From Bacteroides sp. (GTDB taxonomy: Bacteria; Bacteroidota; Bacteroidia; Bacteroidales; Bacteroidaceae), in NCBI RefSeq assembly GCF_029057325.1, contig NZ_JAICZW010000029.1, forward strand, positions 1-38,032: DNA of 38,032 nucleotides, read 5' to 3'. The notes beneath the pieces are model-generated. The model saw only the letters and a program-made list of their open reading frames with translations, ran no database searches and was not told the DNA's origin. This document shows positions 2,724-38,032 of this stretch, one piece after another. Position numbers and translations under genes: made by a program. The number at the start of each line of letters is the position of its first letter. Positions within the stretch are counted from its first letter, which is position 1.

Positions 2724-3244
2724 ATGATAAAGAAAATTCTCTCTTTGTTTTTTATTATAATGGCCGTTTGGGCAGAGGTCGGCTCTGCCCAAACGGTTGC
2801 CAAGAAGTATTACCTGGTGGATGGGCTTTTCTTTGAAGAAAAGCCTTTCCGACATTTCGCGTGAAAGATACGGCAGGGAAGGAGTGGGGCAACGCTGAGG
2901 TGTCAGGTCGTCCCATGGTCTTGAATTTCTGGTACACCAGCTGCGGTCCCTGTATCGGCGAGATGCCGGAGCTGAACAAATGGGTGGAGCTTTATCCCGA
3001 TGTCACTTATCTTGCCACCACCTTCGACAGTGCCGCACAAATCAAGAAAATAGTGGAGAGCCGTCCGTTCCGTTTCACGCAGATAGCCGATGAATTATTT
3101 TTCTTCGATACTTTCCACGTAAGCGGTATGCCTGTCACGATACTGACAGATAAGAAAGGTATCATCCGTCACATAGAAGAAGGAACGGGGATGGCGAAAC
3201 TCAGGTATATGACTGACTTATTGAAGAGAATGGTTGAGGAATAA
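2724..3244 (+). pseudogene. Thioredoxin-like (TlpA/AhpC-TSA type) protein, frameshifted
   Basis: An exported thioredoxin-fold protein split by a one-base shift. Frame 1 starts at ATG 2724, encodes a signal peptide ending near VGSAQ, then KKYYLVDGLFFEEKPF, and stops at TGA 2862-2864. The rest (KDTAGKEWGNAEVSGRPMVLNFWYTSCGPCIGEMPELN...) is open from GTG 2861 in the next frame to TAA 3244. One extra C in the TTCC at 2848-2851 would restore a continuous reading (KPFPTFRVKDTAGKEW), a normal start for these domains. The active-site CGPC is intact. It follows the M56 gene by 14 nt and is probably co-transcribed. It could be a recent pseudogene or a sequencing error; I see no slippery heptamer for programmed frameshifting. 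Confidence 0.75.
2764..2796 (+). other. Perfect 13-bp hairpin inside the signal-peptide coding region of the thioredoxin-like gene
   Basis: CCGTTTGGGCAGA (2764-2776) and TCTGCCCAAACGG (2784-2796) are exact reverse complements around the 7-nt loop GGTCGGC. It lies 40 nt after the start codon and about 50 nt before the frameshift. It is not followed by a T-run. It may slow translation or affect mRNA stability; function is inferred only. Confidence 0.6.
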
Positions 3245-6195: not shown

Positions 6196-6300
6196 ATTTG
6201 TAATTTGTAATTTATGATTTCAGATTTTAGATTTCAGATTCATTGCCGATGACCATGCTTGAAATCACAAATCATAAATCTGAAATCATAAATCTAAAAG
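6196..6300. repeat. AT-rich stem-loop repeat (ATTTATGATTTCAGATT family) between the pRiA4b-like gene and lpxA
   Basis: ATTTATGATTTCAGATTT at 6210-6227 is perfectly complementary to 6276-6293, giving an 18-bp stem around a 48-nt loop. Partial copies of the motif extend both arms. The same motif recurs at 7085-7205, 22083-22176 and 26137-26250. Confidence 0.7.
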
Positions 6301-6305
6301 TTCTA

Positions 6306-7082
6306 TTATTTTCCTGCGGGAATAATGCCGCGTGCCGATTCGCGTATAAAGTTTACGATATAGTTGATTTCGGGAGTCATTTCCATTTCTTCCTCAATCT
6401 TCTTCAAGGCGTTGGTGATGTTCAGTCCGCTTTGATAGATGATGCGGTAGGCATCATGGATTTTCTCGATGGCTTCGTTGGAGAATCCGCGGCGTCGCAA
6501 GCCCACAATGTTGATACCTGCATAGCAGATGGGTTCGCGTCCGGCGATGATGTATGGCGGAACATCCTTGCTGAAGCGGCAGCCGCCTTGTATCATGCCA
6601 TATCCGCCCACCCGGCAGAACTGGTGCATCAATACGCCTCCACTAATGATGGAGTTGTCGTCGATGACGATTTCGCCTGCCATTTTGGTGGCATTGCCGA
6701 TGATGCATCCGTTGCCTACAATGGCATCGTGAGCCACATGCACACCCTCCATCAGGAGGTTGTTGCTGCCGACGATGGTCTTGCCTTTTGCCGCCGTACC
6801 ACGGTTGATGGTCACGTTCTCACGTATCGTGTTGTTATCACCTATTTCAGCGGTGGTCTCTTCTCCTTTGAATTTCAAATCTTGCGGGATAGCACCGATG
6901 ACGGCTCCGGGGAAAATGGTATTTCCGTTGCCGATACGTGCGCCATACAGGATGCTGGCGTTTGCCATAATTTTGTTATTATCGCCGATTACCACATTCT
7001 TATCAATGAAAACAAACGGAGCAATCTCTACGTTTTCCCCGATTTTGGCTTCGGGATGGATATACGCTAAGGGACTAATCAT
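6306..7082 (-). CDS. lpxA: Acyl-ACP--UDP-N-acetylglucosamine O-acyltransferase LpxA
   Basis: 258 residues, close to the E. coli enzyme. It carries out the first step of lipid A synthesis, moving a 3-hydroxyacyl chain from ACP to O-3 of UDP-GlcNAc in the cytoplasm. The N-terminal two thirds is a left-handed beta-helix of hexapeptide repeats (IGDNNKI, IGNGNTI, VGNGCII). The VHVAHDAIVGN segment places the catalytic His at residue 118. A helical C-terminal domain follows. It lies downstream of lpxD and lpxC-fabZ, so the three early lipid A steps are encoded together, with a repeat-filled gap before it. Confidence 0.95.
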   Translation of the reverse strand: MISPLAYIHPEAKIGENVEIAPFVFIDKNVVIGDNNKIMANASILYGARIGNGNTIFPGAVIGAIPQDLKFKGEETTAEIGDNNTIRENVTINRGTAAKGKTIVGSNNLLMEGVHVAHDAIVGNGCIIGNATKMAGEIVIDDNSIISGGVLMHQFCRVGGYGMIQGGCRFSKDVPPYIIAGREPICYAGINIVGLRRRGFSNEAIEKIHDAYRIIYQSGLNITNALKKIEEEMEMTPEINYIVNFIRESARGIIPAGK

Positions 7083-7084
7083 GT

Positions 7085-7205
7085 TAATTATTTATGATTT
7101 TAGATTTATGATTTCAGATTCTAGAAGATTTCAGATTTATGATTTCTATGTATCGTTTATGAACTGATAGTGATATAAATCATAAATCTAAAATCTGAAA
7201 TCTTA
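7085..7205. repeat. AT-rich repeat patch between lpxA and lpxC-fabZ
   Basis: Several copies of TTTATGATTT and GATTTCAGATTT lie in one orientation on the left (7090-7145) and in the opposite orientation on the right (7177-7203). A 14-bp block (AAGATTTCAGATTT, 7125-7138) pairs with the right edge. Same family as the patch at 6196. Confidence 0.65.
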
Positions 7206-13232: not shown

Positions 13233-13390
13233 GCCTCTCCCCCAACCCCTCCCCCGTAGGGAGGGGGGAGTGTGTGGTTACTCCGGTTTATATCGTATAA
13301 TCTATCTATTCTCCTTTCTCCCATTAATTCTCTCCCATTTTCTGTCTATCTCTATTCCCCTCCCTACGGGGGAGGGGTTAGGGGAGAGGC
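13233..13390. repeat. Palindromic element with 34-bp C/G-rich inverted repeats between pgi and gpsA
   Basis: The left arm 13233-13266 and the reverse complement of the right arm 13357-13390 agree at 33 of 34 positions. They enclose about 90 bp of T/C-rich DNA. Each arm also holds its own hairpin (CCCCTCCC, 5 nt, GGGAGGGG). The right arm ends 3 nt from the gpsA stop codon. Transcribed from gpsA into pgi it would fold into a very stable structure. No transposase or clear target duplication is seen. Confidence 0.8.
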
Positions 13391-16434: not shown

Positions 16435-16528
16435 AAAGTTCATCTCGCGTGCTGAGATATACATCTCGTGCGCCGGGATGCACATCTCAGCAGGCGAGAT
16501 GTATATCTCAGCACGCGAGATGAACTTT
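16435..16528. repeat. Perfect 34-bp inverted repeat with nested CATCTC/GAGATG motifs
   Basis: The left arm 16435-16468 and the right arm 16495-16528 are perfect reverse complements around a 26-nt centre (16469-16494). The arms contain repeated CATCTC and GAGATG/GAGATAT blocks, and the centre holds further copies (GATGCACATCTCAGC). It lies between the divergent lysS and MATE promoters, about 90 bp upstream of the MATE -33 element. The rest of the 450-bp gap has no gene that I can support; a weaker dyad CCGTAG/CTACGG lies at 16369-16387. Confidence 0.85.
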
Positions 16529-32606: not shown

Positions 32607-32767
32607 TCACCAAAAAGGGTTATAGGCTTATTGGGTTTTCAGTTCGGTTGTCACTACCGATTCCGGATGAGTCATATCTTTTGCGTGAAGTATCTACCCT
32701 TTTTCTACAACCACCCAATAGATAATATTTAATATCCTGATAATTAGGGATGATTGAGAAATGCGCT

Positions 32768-33030
32768 AAGTTCCGTTAGAACTTATGCATTTCAATAAAT
32801 TTTAAATTTCGGCAGCAAATATATAAAAAACATTATGAATGGCAAACAAAGCACCCAATTTTTATTACGATTCCAATAAAATACTTAAAATTTAGATTGT
32901 TGTCGTAGAATTACCGGAAACCTGCCGCATGAGTATAGCCTCATTGAAAAGCGGTAATATGCTGATTTTTAAAAGAATATCGTCTTCTATTATTTAAGGT
33001 TTATCGAAACCATAAGTTCTAACGGAACTT
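32768..33030. other. Putative invertible DNA segment (phase switch) upstream of susC, OFF orientation
   Basis: AAGTTCCGTTAGAACTTATG (32768-32787) is the exact reverse complement of 33011-33030. Similarity continues inward for about 20 bp on each side with one indel and a few mismatches. Each 20-bp arm has an internal dyad (AAGTTC, 5 nt, GAACTT) like a tyrosine-recombinase core site. The enclosed DNA is AT-rich, has no gene, and carries one full-consensus promoter directed left (32816-32846). Inversion about the centre would put its -7 element at 32975-32982 and the transcript start near 32989, reading into susC. No recombinase gene is in the window. Confidence 0.8.
32816..32846 (-). promoter_or_regulatory. 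Full-consensus promoter inside the invertible segment, pointing away from susC
   Basis: On the minus strand TTTG (32843-32846), exactly 19 nt, TATATTTG (32816-32823). The predicted start is near 32809, running out through the left repeat. I find no equally good rightward promoter between 32788 and 33077; the closest, GAACTTTG at 33043-33050, lacks the TA. Confidence 0.8.
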
Positions 33031-33077
33031 TATATCTTAAGAGAACTTTGCTTTTCTAAAACCTTAAAAAACATAAT

Positions 33078-36000
33078 ATGATTAAGAGTCTAAAGTCCGT
33101 GGGTGCTCTGCTGTTCTTGTCAACTTTTTGTAACGGAACAGTTTACGCCACTCAAGTAGAAAAAACAGCGGACGTAAAGGTGGTTCAGCAAAATGGTACT
33201 TGTACCGGAGTTGTAAAGGATGCTACAGGCGAAACGGTCATCGGTGCATCTGTGTTAGTGAAAGGTTCTACAAATGGAACCATCACAGGAATAGATGGAG
33301 ATTTCTCCCTTTCTAATGTTCCAAGAGGAAGCGTGATTGTCATCTCTTTTGTCGGCTATCAGACGCAGGAGGTGAAATGGACGGGAACTCCATTGAACAT
33401 TGTCCTGAAGGACGATTCGAAATTGCTGGACGAAGTAGTCGTAGTGGGCTATGGAACACAGAAGAAAGTGAATGTGACAGGTGCGGTGAGCATGGTGAAC
33501 TCAGACGTGATTGAATCGCGTCCTGTTGCTAATGTGAGCCAGGCATTGCAGGGTGCCATTCCCGGTTTGAACCTTTCTGCCAGCTCAAGCGGTGGTGACC
33601 TTAACACCAGCATGAGCATTAATATCCGTGGTACAGGTTCTATCGGTAACGGTTCTGTGGACAGACCTTTGATCTTGATTGACGGTATCGAAGGTGATTT
33701 GAATTCCTTGAATCCCAATGATGTAGAAAGCGTATCAGTACTGAAAGATGCGGCTTCGGCTTCTATCTACGGTTCGCGTGCTGCATTCGGTGTGATCTTG
33801 GTTACCACCAAGAGTGGAAAGGCCGGCAAGGTGAAGGTTACTTATTCAGGTGACGTTCGTTTCAGCACTGCAACACAGGTGCCTAAGATGGCCAATTCAC
33901 TGCAATTTGCCACTTACTTCAATGCCGCGAATGTTAACGCAGGAGGTTCGAATATATTCACCGATGAAACGATGGAGAACATCAAGAAGTACATGAACGG
34001 CGAATTCACAGACCCCAGCCGACCGGAATATTGGGGAACAACAGCCAATCCGTCGAACGGAAAGTGGAACAACTATGGTTCGGCTTTTGCCAATACGGAC
34101 TGGTTTAATGAGTTCTACAAGAAGAATGTACCTTCTACACAGCATAACCTGAGCTTGAGCGGTGGTAACGAGAAGTTCAATTGGTCAGTTAGTGGAAGCT
34201 TCCTGTTGCAGAACGGTTTGATTGCTCACGGACACGATGAACTGGACCGTTACACATTGAACAGCAAAATCGGAGCCGAACTCGCTTCATGGGCACGTTT
34301 GGATTACTCTACCAAATGGACACGCAAGGATTATGAGAAACCTCAGTATCTGACAGGTTTGTTCTTCCACAACATTGCACGCCGCTGGCCTTCTTGTCCG
34401 GTTGTTGACCCGAATGGAAACTGGATGGCCGAAATGGAGATTTATGAATTGGAAGACGGTGGTATCTATAAGGAGAACAACGACGAGTTCACTCAACAGC
34501 TGAAGTTCACCTTCACACCGGTGAAAGGATGGAACATCTATGCGGAAGGAGCTTTGCGTCTTAGTAATAACAAGACTACCAAAAGCGAAATTCCTATTTA
34601 CAATTACAATGCGGCCAACGAACCGATGTTGCGTGACTCCGGATACGGAACAGTGACTTCTGTGTATGACAACCGCTACAGACAAAACTATTATGCAGTG
34701 AATGTCTATACCGACTATACTCGCAGCTTCGGAAAACACAACGGAAAAGTATTGGTGGGTGTGAACTATGAGCGCTATAACCAAGACAACATGTGGGGTA
34801 GCGGTAAGAACCTGACTACAGAAGACAAGACTTTCCTGAGCCAGGCACAGAGCAACAAGAAGAATGGTGACGGCTATTGGAACCGTGCTACAGCCGGTTA
34901 TTTCGGACGTTTCAATTATGACTATGACGGCAAGTATCTGGCAGAGTTCAATATCCGTTATGACGGTTCTTCACGCTTCTTGGCCGACAAGCGTTGGGCA
35001 TGGTTCCCGTCAGTATCTTTGGGATGGAACATCGCCCGTGAGGAATTCTTTGAGAATCTGACTGAAACAGTCAATACATTGAAACTTCGTGCTTCTTGGG
35101 GACAATTGGGTAACACCAGCTCCAATTATGGCAGTTTCTGGGATTGGTATCCGTTCTACCAGCAGCAAGCCATCGGCTCCGCAAACAGCAACTGGCTGAT
35201 TAATGGAGAAAAACAGAACACAGCTTCATTGCCCGGCATTGTGAATGCTACCATGACTTGGGAAACGGTAGAAACATGGGACATCGGTTTCGATTTCGGA
35301 GCTTTCAATAATCGTCTGACCGGTACTTTCGACTGGTACAGCCGTACAACGAAAGATATGATTGGTCCGGCACCTGTCTTGGGTTCTGTATTGGGTACTG
35401 ATGCACCGAGGACCAACAACTGCGATATGCGTACTACAGGTTGGGAATTGGAACTCAGCTGGCGCGATCAGATCAATGACTTCACATACGGCGCACGATT
35501 CAATATCTCGGACAACCGTTCCAAGATCCTGTCTTATCCGTATGATGGTGATTTTGAAAATCAAAATGTCGGCGGTTACTACAATGGCAAGTACTTGAAT
35601 GAAATCTGGGGTTATGAAAGTGTAGGTCTGGCATCCACCAAAGAAGAAATGGACAACTGGTTGGCAAACAATAAACCCAACTGGGGAAGCAACTGGGGTG
35701 CAGGTGACGTCATGTATAAGGACCAGAACGGTGACGGTATTGTCAATTCCGGTGCAGGCACTCTGAAAGATCACGGTGACTTGAAGCGTATCGGTAATGC
35801 GACTCCGCGCTATCGCGTAGGTTTGAACCTGGATGCAGCATACAAGGGATTTGACTTCTCTGTATTCTTCCAAGGAGTGTTGAAACGTGACTGGAACTTT
35901 GGAGCAGGAGATGCTTATTTCTGGGGAGCACAGGGCAACCAGTGGCAAAGTGCTTGCTTCGAGGAGCATCTGGACTACTGGACAGAAGAGAACAAAGGCG

Positions 36001-36314
36001 CCTATTATCCCAAACCTTATATGGGTGGTATCACGAAGAACCAGCAGACACAGACACGCTATCTGCAGAGTGCCGCCTACCTTCGTTGCAAGAATATTCA
36101 GTTGGGATACTCTTTGCCGAAGTCTCTGCTGTTACCGGCCGGAATCAGCAATTGCCGTGTTTATCTGTCATGCGACAACTTGTTCACTATTACAGGTTTG
36201 TCAAGCATCTTTGATCCCGAAGCATTCGGTGGATATGGTGACGAAGGTTGGGGAAGTGGTAAGACTTACCCGCTGCAACGTACCATCTCTGTGGGTGTAA
36301 ATCTTAGTTTTTAA
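33078..36314 (+). CDS. SusC/RagA-type TonB-linked outer membrane protein
   Basis: 1078 residues. The signal peptide (about 1-25, ending VYA) is followed by a carboxypeptidase-regulatory-like domain (about 42-112, GETVIGASVLVKGSTNGTITGIDG), a TonB-box-like LLDEVVVVGYGTQKK (about 115-130), a plug domain (about 130-240, with LILIDGIEGDLNSLNPNDVESVSVLKDAASASIYGSRAAFGVILVTTKSG) and a beta-barrel to the C-terminal Phe. It imports a glycan or other large nutrient with its SusD partner, 26 nt downstream. No glycoside hydrolase or regulator is in view, so the substrate is unknown. Expression is probably set by the invertible segment upstream. Confidence 0.95.
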   Translation: MIKSLKSVGALLFLSTFCNGTVYATQVEKTADVKVVQQNGTCTGVVKDATGETVIGASVLVKGSTNGTITGIDGDFSLSNVPRGSVIVISFVGYQTQEVKWTGTPLNIVLKDDSKLLDEVVVVGYGTQKKVNVTGAVSMVNSDVIESRPVANVSQALQGAIPGLNLSASSSGGDLNTSMSINIRGTGSIGNGSVDRPLILIDGIEGDLNSLNPNDVESVSVLKDAASASIYGSRAAFGVILVTTKSGKAGKVKVTYSGDVRFSTATQVPKMANSLQFATYFNAANVNAGGSNIFTDETMENIKKYMNGEFTDPSRPEYWGTTANPSNGKWNNYGSAFANTDWFNEFYKKNVPSTQHNLSLSGGNEKFNWSVSGSFLLQNGLIAHGHDELDRYTLNSKIGAELASWARLDYSTKWTRKDYEKPQYLTGLFFHNIARRWPSCPVVDPNGNWMAEMEIYELEDGGIYKENNDEFTQQLKFTFTPVKGWNIYAEGALRLSNNKTTKSEIPIYNYNAANEPMLRDSGYGTVTSVYDNRYRQNYYAVNVYTDYTRSFGKHNGKVLVGVNYERYNQDNMWGSGKNLTTEDKTFLSQAQSNKKNGDGYWNRATAGYFGRFNYDYDGKYLAEFNIRYDGSSRFLADKRWAWFPSVSLGWNIAREEFFENLTETVNTLKLRASWGQLGNTSSNYGSFWDWYPFYQQQAIGSANSNWLINGEKQNTASLPGIVNATMTWETVETWDIGFDFGAFNNRLTGTFDWYSRTTKDMIGPAPVLGSVLGTDAPRTNNCDMRTTGWELELSWRDQINDFTYGARFNISDNRSKILSYPYDGDFENQNVGGYYNGKYLNEIWGYESVGLASTKEEMDNWLANNKPNWGSNWGAGDVMYKDQNGDGIVNSGAGTLKDHGDLKRIGNATPRYRVGLNLDAAYKGFDFSVFFQGVLKRDWNFGAGDAYFWGAQGNQWQSACFEEHLDYWTEENKGAYYPKPYMGGITKNQQTQTRYLQSAAYLRCKNIQLGYSLPKSLLLPAGISNCRVYLSCDNLFTITGLSSIFDPEAFGGYGDEGWGSGKTYPLQRTISVGVNLSF

Positions 36315-36340
36315 ATCACAATAATAATAAGAAGAAGAAT

Positions 36341-38032
36341 ATGAAAATAAATACAAAACACATCGGATTATGTCTTTTGCTGGGTGCTACTGCCATGGGT
36401 ACCACCTCATGCAACGACCTGCTTGATCTTGATCCTATAAGCCAAATTACACCTGGCTCATACTATACATCTGCCGATCAGTTGGCTACTTACTTGAACA
36501 ATTATTATAGTTCCTATCTAGTTGCTCCCTACAGTGGTGAAATGTATCACACGCAGAGTTATAGTGACGGTATGGCACGTTCTGACGGCAATACCGATAT
36601 CATGTTGTCCAGTTTGAACGGTAGCACCACGCTCTTCGCCGATGACCACTGGGAAGTTTCTTCCGGAAAGACTCTTCAGGGATACTACGGAGGAGTGCGC
36701 ATTTACAACTATTTCTTGGAGAAGGCAACCACCGGTTATAAGAACGGAACGATTTCCGGCGATGCCGAACTGATAAAGAACTATATCGGAGAGGGCTACT
36801 TCTTCCGTGCGTTGTGCTACTTCCGAATGTTGGCCTATTATGGTGATTTGCCCATAATTACCGAAGTATTGGAAGACAGAGATGATGTCATCGTAGAAAA
36901 CAGTAAGCGTAGTCCGCGTAATGAAGTGGCCCGTTTCATCTTGAAAGATTTGGACGAAGCCATCAATAACCTGGCAAGTCGAGGTAAGTTCAATGGCCAG
37001 CGTGTCAACAAAGAGGCAGCTTTGTTATTTAAAGCCAGAGTAGCCTTGTTCGAAGCCACTTTTGAGAAGTATCACAAGGGAAGCGGACGTGTGCCGGGAG
37101 ACAACAACTGGCCGGGCAAGGATATGCCTTACAACAGTGGAAAGACTTTCAACATTGATGGTGAAGTGAACTTCTTCCTGACAGAAGCCATGAACGCATC
37201 AAAACAGATAGCAGAAAGCGCGCAACTCACTGAAAACAACCACGTGATCGAACCTCAGCCGGGTGTCATCACCGGTTGGAACGAGTATTTCGAAATGTAC
37301 AGCCAGCCTTCATTGGCCAATGTTCCTGAAGTCTTGTTGTGGAAGCAATACAACTATAGCCTGAGCGTCAGCCACAATGCACCCTATCGTGTGAAGACCG
37401 GTTGTGCCGATGGTTATACCCGTACCTTTGCAGAATCTTTCTTGATGAAGAACGGATTGCCTATTTATGCCAGCAACGAGTATCGGGGTGATGTCAGCAT
37501 CGATGATGTGAAGGCCGGCCGCGACGAACGTCTCCAGCTGTTTGTTTGGAGCGAGAACACGCTGCTTGATTCTGATCCTACTGCTCCTCAATACGGTCAG
37601 GTGTTCACGAAGCCCGGTATCGAGAGCTCCAATCAGGAAACACGTTGCGTCACAGGCTACCAGCCGCGTAAGTATTATACGTATGACTATGCCCAGACTC
37701 CGAACGATGAGATACGTGGTACCAATGCTTGCCCCATTTTCCGTACGGCAGAAGCGTTGCTGATCTACATGGAAGCTTGCTATGAAAAGAATGGAAGTTT
37801 GGATGCTGATGCTAAGAAATACTGGCAGGCGTTGCGTAAACGCGCCGGTGTGAGCACAGATATCGACGCTACGATTGCCGCTACCGACCTTGAGAAAGAA
37901 AAGGATTTCGGCGTGTATTCAGGAACTACCAGAGTAGATGCAACCTTGTATAACATTCGTCGTGAACGTATGAACGAACTTTTCAGTGAAGGACAACGTT
38001 TCGCGGATTTGATCCGTTGGCGTTCGTTCGAC
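36341..38032 (+). CDS. SusD/RagB-type nutrient-binding outer membrane lipoprotein (3' end outside window)
   Basis: At least 564 residues, still open at the window edge. The N-terminus MKINTKHIGLCLLLGATAMGTTSCND is a lipoprotein signal with the acylated Cys at residue 24. LLDLDPISQITPGSYYTSADQLATYLNNYY and YIGEGYFFRALCYFRMLAYYGDLPII are typical SusD-like segments, and the end of the window (ERMNELFSEGQRFADLIRWRSFD) is the conserved C-terminal region, so little of the gene is missing. It caps the SusC barrel as the surface-exposed substrate-binding lid. Confidence 0.94.
   Translation, partial: MKINTKHIGLCLLLGATAMGTTSCNDLLDLDPISQITPGSYYTSADQLATYLNNYYSSYLVAPYSGEMYHTQSYSDGMARSDGNTDIMLSSLNGSTTLFADDHWEVSSGKTLQGYYGGVRIYNYFLEKATTGYKNGTISGDAELIKNYIGEGYFFRALCYFRMLAYYGDLPIITEVLEDRDDVIVENSKRSPRNEVARFILKDLDEAINNLASRGKFNGQRVNKEAALLFKARVALFEATFEKYHKGSGRVPGDNNWPGKDMPYNSGKTFNIDGEVNFFLTEAMNASKQIAESAQLTENNHVIEPQPGVITGWNEYFEMYSQPSLANVPEVLLWKQYNYSLSVSHNAPYRVKTGCADGYTRTFAESFLMKNGLPIYASNEYRGDVSIDDVKAGRDERLQLFVWSENTLLDSDPTAPQYGQVFTKPGIESSNQETRCVTGYQPRKYYTYDYAQTPNDEIRGTNACPIFRTAEALLIYMEACYEKNGSLDADAKKYWQALRKRAGVSTDIDATIAATDLEKEKDFGVYSGTTRVDATLYNIRRERMNELFSEGQRFADLIRWRSFD

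Follow-up and report, generated by a model that had tools for sequence, protein, structure and literature searches.

The question raised by this locus is whether the short segment upstream of a susC/susD gene pair is a promoter that can be turned around, as a sequence-only reading of the DNA had proposed. We analysed the whole stretch of 38,032 nucleotides (hereafter the window), which is an entire contig of a 3.25-Mb genome that is 84.62% complete. We put the probability at roughly nine in ten that the locus is an invertible promoter, that is, an ON/OFF phase switch, for the two-gene susCD operon, and the reading of it as a further example of an established type of phase-variation switch, present here in the OFF orientation, is well supported. 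The support covers the structure of the sites, the promoter, the occurrence of both orientations among orthologous units and the matching of centres within pairs of sites; from these we infer that flipping is probably ongoing in the window strain, and that the orientation of the segment would set the silence or expression of susC. The features of the locus are collected in Table 1.

Table 1. Predicted elements of the switch and its target operon in the window
Feature	Position	Strand	Remark
Left flank	32687..32767	+	conserved with the unit in 4/4 genomes carrying it
Left recombination site (putative)	32768..32787	+	palindromic core 32769-32783, AGTTC-CGTTA-GAACT
Left arm, imperfect inner extension	32788..32807	+	88% self-match with right side
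Putative invertible segment, OFF orientation in window	32788..33010		inverted relative to G028 and G124, same as IMSAGC_004
Promoter TTTG (32843-32846)-N19-TATATTTG (32816-32823)	32816..32846	-	directed away from susC
Right arm, imperfect inner extension	32992..33010	-	self-match
Right recombination site (putative)	33011..33030	-	core 33015-33029
susC-like TonB-dependent outer membrane importer gene, 1078 aa	33078..36314	+	predicted switch target
susD-like lipoprotein gene	36341..38032	+	PF07980 and PF14322; cut by contig end

The two arms (32768-32787 and 33011-33030) form a perfect inverted repeat, each being 20 nt long, 100% complementary to the other and separated from it by 223 nt, and the imperfect extension to about 40 nt that had been described was recovered in a self-comparison, in which 32768-32807 matches 32992-33030 at 88%. 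The segment between the arms is gene-free and contains a single consensus Bacteroides promoter: the plus-strand letters CAAATATA and CAAA correspond to a minus-strand TTTG-N19-TATATTTG, a strict match running from 32846 to 32816 and hence away from susC, which places the window in the OFF orientation as claimed. A strict promoter scan of the segment returned no plus-strand match, in keeping with the earlier statement that no other obvious rightward promoter is present. The right arm lies 47 nt from the susC ATG (33078). The product of this gene scores 924 bits against TIGR04056 (cut-off 368) and carries Plug, CarbopepD_reg_2 and barrel domains according to Pfam, so that it is a full SusC/RagA family protein.

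The core of each site is a palindrome around a 5-nt centre, and a palindrome around a short centre is the general layout of tyrosine recombinase sites. Nakayama-Imaohji reportedly described Tsr0667-controlled invertible regions of Bacteroides fragilis in 2009, and the sites of Tsr0667 are said to have the consensus AGTYYYN4GDACT, although we found no paper carrying this string in the literature searched. The sequence AGTTCCGTTAGAACT fits it, and both sites in the window match the motif exactly. We propose that a recombinase, most likely of the tyrosine family and encoded at another locus, binds the two 15-bp palindromic sites, and that strand exchange within the identical 5-nt centre CGTTA inverts the 223 bp that lie between the 20-bp arms. 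As sequenced, with its only consensus promoter directed leftward, the switch should leave susC silent. Once the segment is inverted, the -7 box would by arithmetic fall at 32975-32982, and the same promoter would start a transcript near 32987-32991, roughly 90 nt upstream of the susC ATG, which agrees with the start near 32989 predicted from the letters alone.

An exact inverted repeat of at least 18 nt with arms within 600 bp occurred in none of 40 first-order Markov windows. However, the repeat alone is not decisive, because the window holds other exact inverted repeats of at least 20 nt (13244/13357, 16435/16495 and 28059/28104, as well as a 23-nt pair at 6277/7098). Strict promoters number four in the window versus a mean of 0.475 per random window. 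The exact 20-mer of the arms had no match in wider collections of genome contigs and viral contigs, and an exact 17-mer searched in 61 genomes was found in the window's own genome only.

The orientation of the segment in related genomes bears on the question more directly. A 24-mer from the left flank (32687-32710, up to three mismatches) occurs once in each of four genomes and in none of the nine others searched. Besides the window genome, those with a close susC relative and the same left flank are G028, the metagenome-assembled genome G124 (contig CAMWGU010000129.1; locus L025) and IMSAGC_004 (G123, L026), and the four units sit in clearly different genomes. The TATATTTG box is aligned in all four; on reading, G028 and G124 also show the full TTTG-N19-TATATTTG, and IMSAGC_004 has CTTG at the -33 place. 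The promoter points away from susC in the window and in IMSAGC_004, and toward susC in G028 (L029) and G124 (L096 with L025), so that among these orthologous units, all from different genomes, two of the four face each way. The flipped form that the sequence-only reading proposed to look for in relatives is therefore carried by two of the three other genomes with the unit, and the invertibility that it had inferred gains support from G028 and G124.

We compared the segments by alignment after removing 35 nt next to each arm, the partial G028 segment being trimmed at one end only. Each of the four cross pairs exceeded all 300 shuffles only when one segment was reversed, with inverted-orientation scores of 46.5, 71.5, 52.5 and 45.5 against shuffle maxima of 25, 29, 30.5 and 33, respectively. 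G124 with G028 rose above the shuffles only un-inverted (74 in the same orientation versus a shuffle maximum of 31.5). For the window with IMSAGC_004, the trimmed scores were 27.0 in the same and 20.5 in the inverted orientation (shuffle 99% point 26.0, maximum 28.5), and the untrimmed ones 45.0 and 29.5 (shuffle maximum 41.5); the shared orientation of these two is weakly supported after trimming and clearer before it. A single G124 contig (C21) carries the left flank together with both sites and the entire inverted segment, and the extended repeat is exact over 51 bp. Between C21 and the susC contig there is an exact overlap of 55 nt. We take this for the word length of the assembler; it ends at the last base common to both possible neighbours, the base that follows being A on the path to susC and G on the path to the left flank. 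The 51-nt repeat is shorter than this word and is therefore by itself too short to break the assembly graph, and there is a hint here that both orientations may be present in the G124 sample; however, a mixed sample would be expected to branch at the left junction as well, and C21 is unbroken there. The G028 contig C29 covers the left flank, the site and, beyond it, the far end of the segment; its overlap with the susC contig is 90 nt long and contains three single-base differences. As the break between these contigs falls at those differences, we dropped it as a proof of inversion, and of the two breaks only that in G124 fits one.

These orientations also weigh on a static interpretation of the locus, namely, that the arms are a pair of regulator-binding palindromes or a leader hairpin, and that the promoter serves a leftward transcript. 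In favour of such an arrangement, each arm is itself an operator-like palindrome, and all four units share the conserved left flank. However, the leftward frame toward 32214 is interrupted by stops between 32606 and 32767, the 130-aa ORF beyond it, left of the switch, has no Pfam match, and the segment is reversed in two of the four orthologous units. If this difference in orientation is accepted, a static feature is already refuted, and we regard it as highly improbable.

We then considered whether sites of this kind occur in pairs elsewhere. With up to three mismatches, the 20-mer has only its two known places in the 84.62% of the genome that is covered, and its reversed control has one match; the idea that further copies of the repeat might stand next to susC genes thus failed for the 20-mer itself, but it held for the architecture, of which two more switches were found. 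The motif AGTYYYN4GDACT has 53 matches at 42 places in the same genome compared with 52 for its reversed control, so the total is not elevated and only the pairing is unusual. Close inverted pairs number three, namely, the window pair, C30:4193/4436 and C37:33499/34429 (930 bp between site starts); all three stand directly before susC genes, those after the C30 and C37 pairs passing the SusC model. The C30 pair (L050:3694-3951) seems to be OFF and the C37 pair (L056:2000-2944) ON. A search by pair pattern returned two matches in the window's own genome, and its reversed control none in 99 genomes. Pairs found by the pattern in G085 and G083 also precede SusC genes, one of which is partial (348.8 versus the cut-off of 368); a match in G034 was set aside as a direct repeat.

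Among the fetched loci, all 10 distinct inverted pairs have identical centres (L018 duplicates L033 and was counted once), and four of the 10 have one arm mismatch; as susC was the reason for fetching five of these loci, their position before that gene is not independent. We also listed at least 20 close motif pairs without a mismatch filter, spaced 100-1500 bp apart, in the genomes G000, G126, G061 and, among the matches listed, G125. Identical inverted 5-nt centres were found in 17 of 20, with arm mismatches in 10 of these 17 among the pairs listed. Centres differ between loci while matching within pairs. Among the orthologous units it is position 2 of the centre that varies (CGTTA, CATTA and CTTTA), always in both copies. 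Identical centres with diverging arms are predicted by strand exchange within the centre. This matched-centre rule, by which the arms may differ and the central 5 nt may not, could serve to screen the sequence of unread genomes for active switches in a simple way. An outward -7 box (TAnnTTTG) lies 25-46 nt inside one arm in eight of the 10 pairs, seven of them pointing away from susC and one (C37 in the window's own genome) toward it, and no clear box is seen at the loci L059 and L060. Adding G028 and G124 gives a total of seven OFF and three ON. A strict -33/-7 promoter is present in one of the 10 pairs, the window's own.

As for the enzyme, a Pfam integrase search gave 11 matches on ten contigs of the window's own genome (about ten tyrosine-recombinase genes or fragments) and none on the window contig; therefore, the inverting enzyme is probably encoded elsewhere and acts in trans. 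One of these genes (on C190) passes the XerD cut-off, another (on C153) is XerC-like, and P0003 (on C131) is a stand-alone recombinase of 377 aa. No motif pair lies beside P0003 or its relatives in nine stretches, which contain one single looser match (L099), as expected for an enzyme acting at a distance. P0003 has homologs at 77% identity in IMSAGC_004, 76% in GM023, 44% in G028 and 32% in G124. This distribution does not match that of the susCD unit, so we did not assign P0003, which stands as an unproven candidate for the switch enzyme. P0005 (on C35) has 59% matches of near-identical score in four genomes, with at most 41% in IMSAGC_004 and 45% in G124; we suspect a mobile-element integrase, and it was dropped.

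The low identities of the P0003 homologs in G028 and G124, both of which are ON, would fit a relic that was inverted in its ancestry and is now locked OFF in this strain, the recombinase being missing or the sites decayed, and so would the fact that both orientations were seen only between different genomes. However, the absence of a closer homolog from G028 is weak evidence, since that genome is 64% complete, and two further intact pairs, of which one is ON, are present in the window's own genome. Moreover, the sites in the window themselves speak for recent exchange, as they match perfectly over 20 bp and, compared with the relatives, show the same change of centre in both copies. We thus consider a relic unlikely, and a working switch remains the preferred reading.

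Work on B. fragilis (PMC4747536 and PMC11852207) describes invertible promoters near susC/susD and enzymes that act on many such promoters. The Tsr0667 regions, as summarised in PMC4747536, resemble the present locus in having a promoter-bearing segment between short inverted repeats that adjoins susC/susD, with a distant enzyme serving many regions; they differ in that the present locus belongs to another species, is a simple switch with two sites and not a shufflon, and has a candidate enzyme only. The promoters IVp-I and IVp-II of B. fragilis, inverted by the tyrosine recombinase BF2766/Tsr19 (PMC4747536), are likewise simple ON/OFF inversions controlling surface products, and one enzyme acts on them both near and far. 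However, their targets are polysaccharide and other outer membrane genes, and the recombinase gene lies near one promoter, whereas none was found on the window contig. According to PMC10939037, invertible regions near susC/susD change orientation in bowel disease and vary in the human gut; these are the same type of Bacteroidales locus, detected from metagenomic reads, and that work is based on 39 named genomes. Two marks of Bacteroidales invertible promoters are present in the window, namely, an intergenic segment that contains a Bacteroides-type promoter and is bounded by inverted repeats, and the occurrence of both orientations, here among different genomes. Like a Tsr0667-type SusC/SusD switch, the locus adjoins susC/susD and has a site that fits the consensus given above. 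Judged by its sequence, the locus shares the testable features of known susC/susD invertible promoters, the enzyme apart, and would add a phase-variable outer membrane importer, with both orientations across relatives, to the surface-variation repertoire of gut Bacteroides.

The SusC/SusD shufflons of B. fragilis, whose layout also recurs in P. vulgatus ATCC 8482 (L035), have the same class of palindromic site before susC, but there several susC genes share sites with one promoter. In L035, three SusC-like genes each have one like site with the same centre (at 3206, 7938 and 13725), and the TATATTTG box is found only near the middle gene, which is a shufflon layout. The window might accordingly be one arm of a shufflon, with several susC cassettes sharing a promoter and the partners missing from the assembly, as the incompleteness of the genome and the end of the contig in susD would permit. 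However, instead of at least three sites with a shared centre and several susC genes, the 84.62%-complete genome has two copies of the 20-mer (up to three mismatches) and the window one operon. The site pair is complete around a single promoter, and IMSAGC_004 and G028 are without a second susC in the DNA read downstream of susD. We therefore find a shufflon arm very unlikely and retain the two-site switch.

The unit has a history of its own. Left of the site, homology stops after 82-100 nt in five of the six pairs of units compared, and between IMSAGC_004 and G124 it reaches about 218 nt; on the right side, IMSAGC_004 and G028 diverge about 97 nt past susD. The left neighbours differ among the units, being a CobW-type GTPase, a DEAD-box helicase, an outer membrane barrel and an ABC transporter ATPase. 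We counted identical fourfold sites in susC and in a housekeeping comparator, an EPSP-synthase family gene that is probably murA. The window compares with G028 at 469/478 in susC versus 112/187 in the housekeeping gene, with G124 at 388/450 versus 57/163, and with IMSAGC_004 at 300/423 versus 48/163. As susC is far more alike than the housekeeping gene, we conclude that the susCD unit has moved horizontally. Between the window and G028, identity is about 99% in susCD (33030-38032), compared with 75% in the segment and 83% in the left flank (32687-33010 region), so that switch and susCD have separate histories: in the most recent exchange the genes were replaced, while the switches stayed distinct. 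This contrast suggests that cargo and control can be exchanged separately. Tentatively, and with more doubt than confidence, we picture a unit of about 5.7 kb without its own recombinase that spreads between Bacteroidaceae and settles at various sites in the chromosome, where a resident switch may receive new genes in place of the old, the shared family of palindromic sites letting whichever enzyme the host has operate it.

The window also holds other repeats. At 16435-16528, a perfect 34-bp hairpin with a 26-nt loop lies between divergent ORFs, and a palindrome like its TTCATCTCGCG is also present on contig C131 of the same genome (L055:14166); the two are perhaps copies of an interspersed palindromic element. 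The stretches 6210-7202 and 13244-13379 hold a set of ATTTATGATTTCAGATTT-like repeats, which occur on both strands, together with an inverted repeat 23 bp long and rich in C/G.
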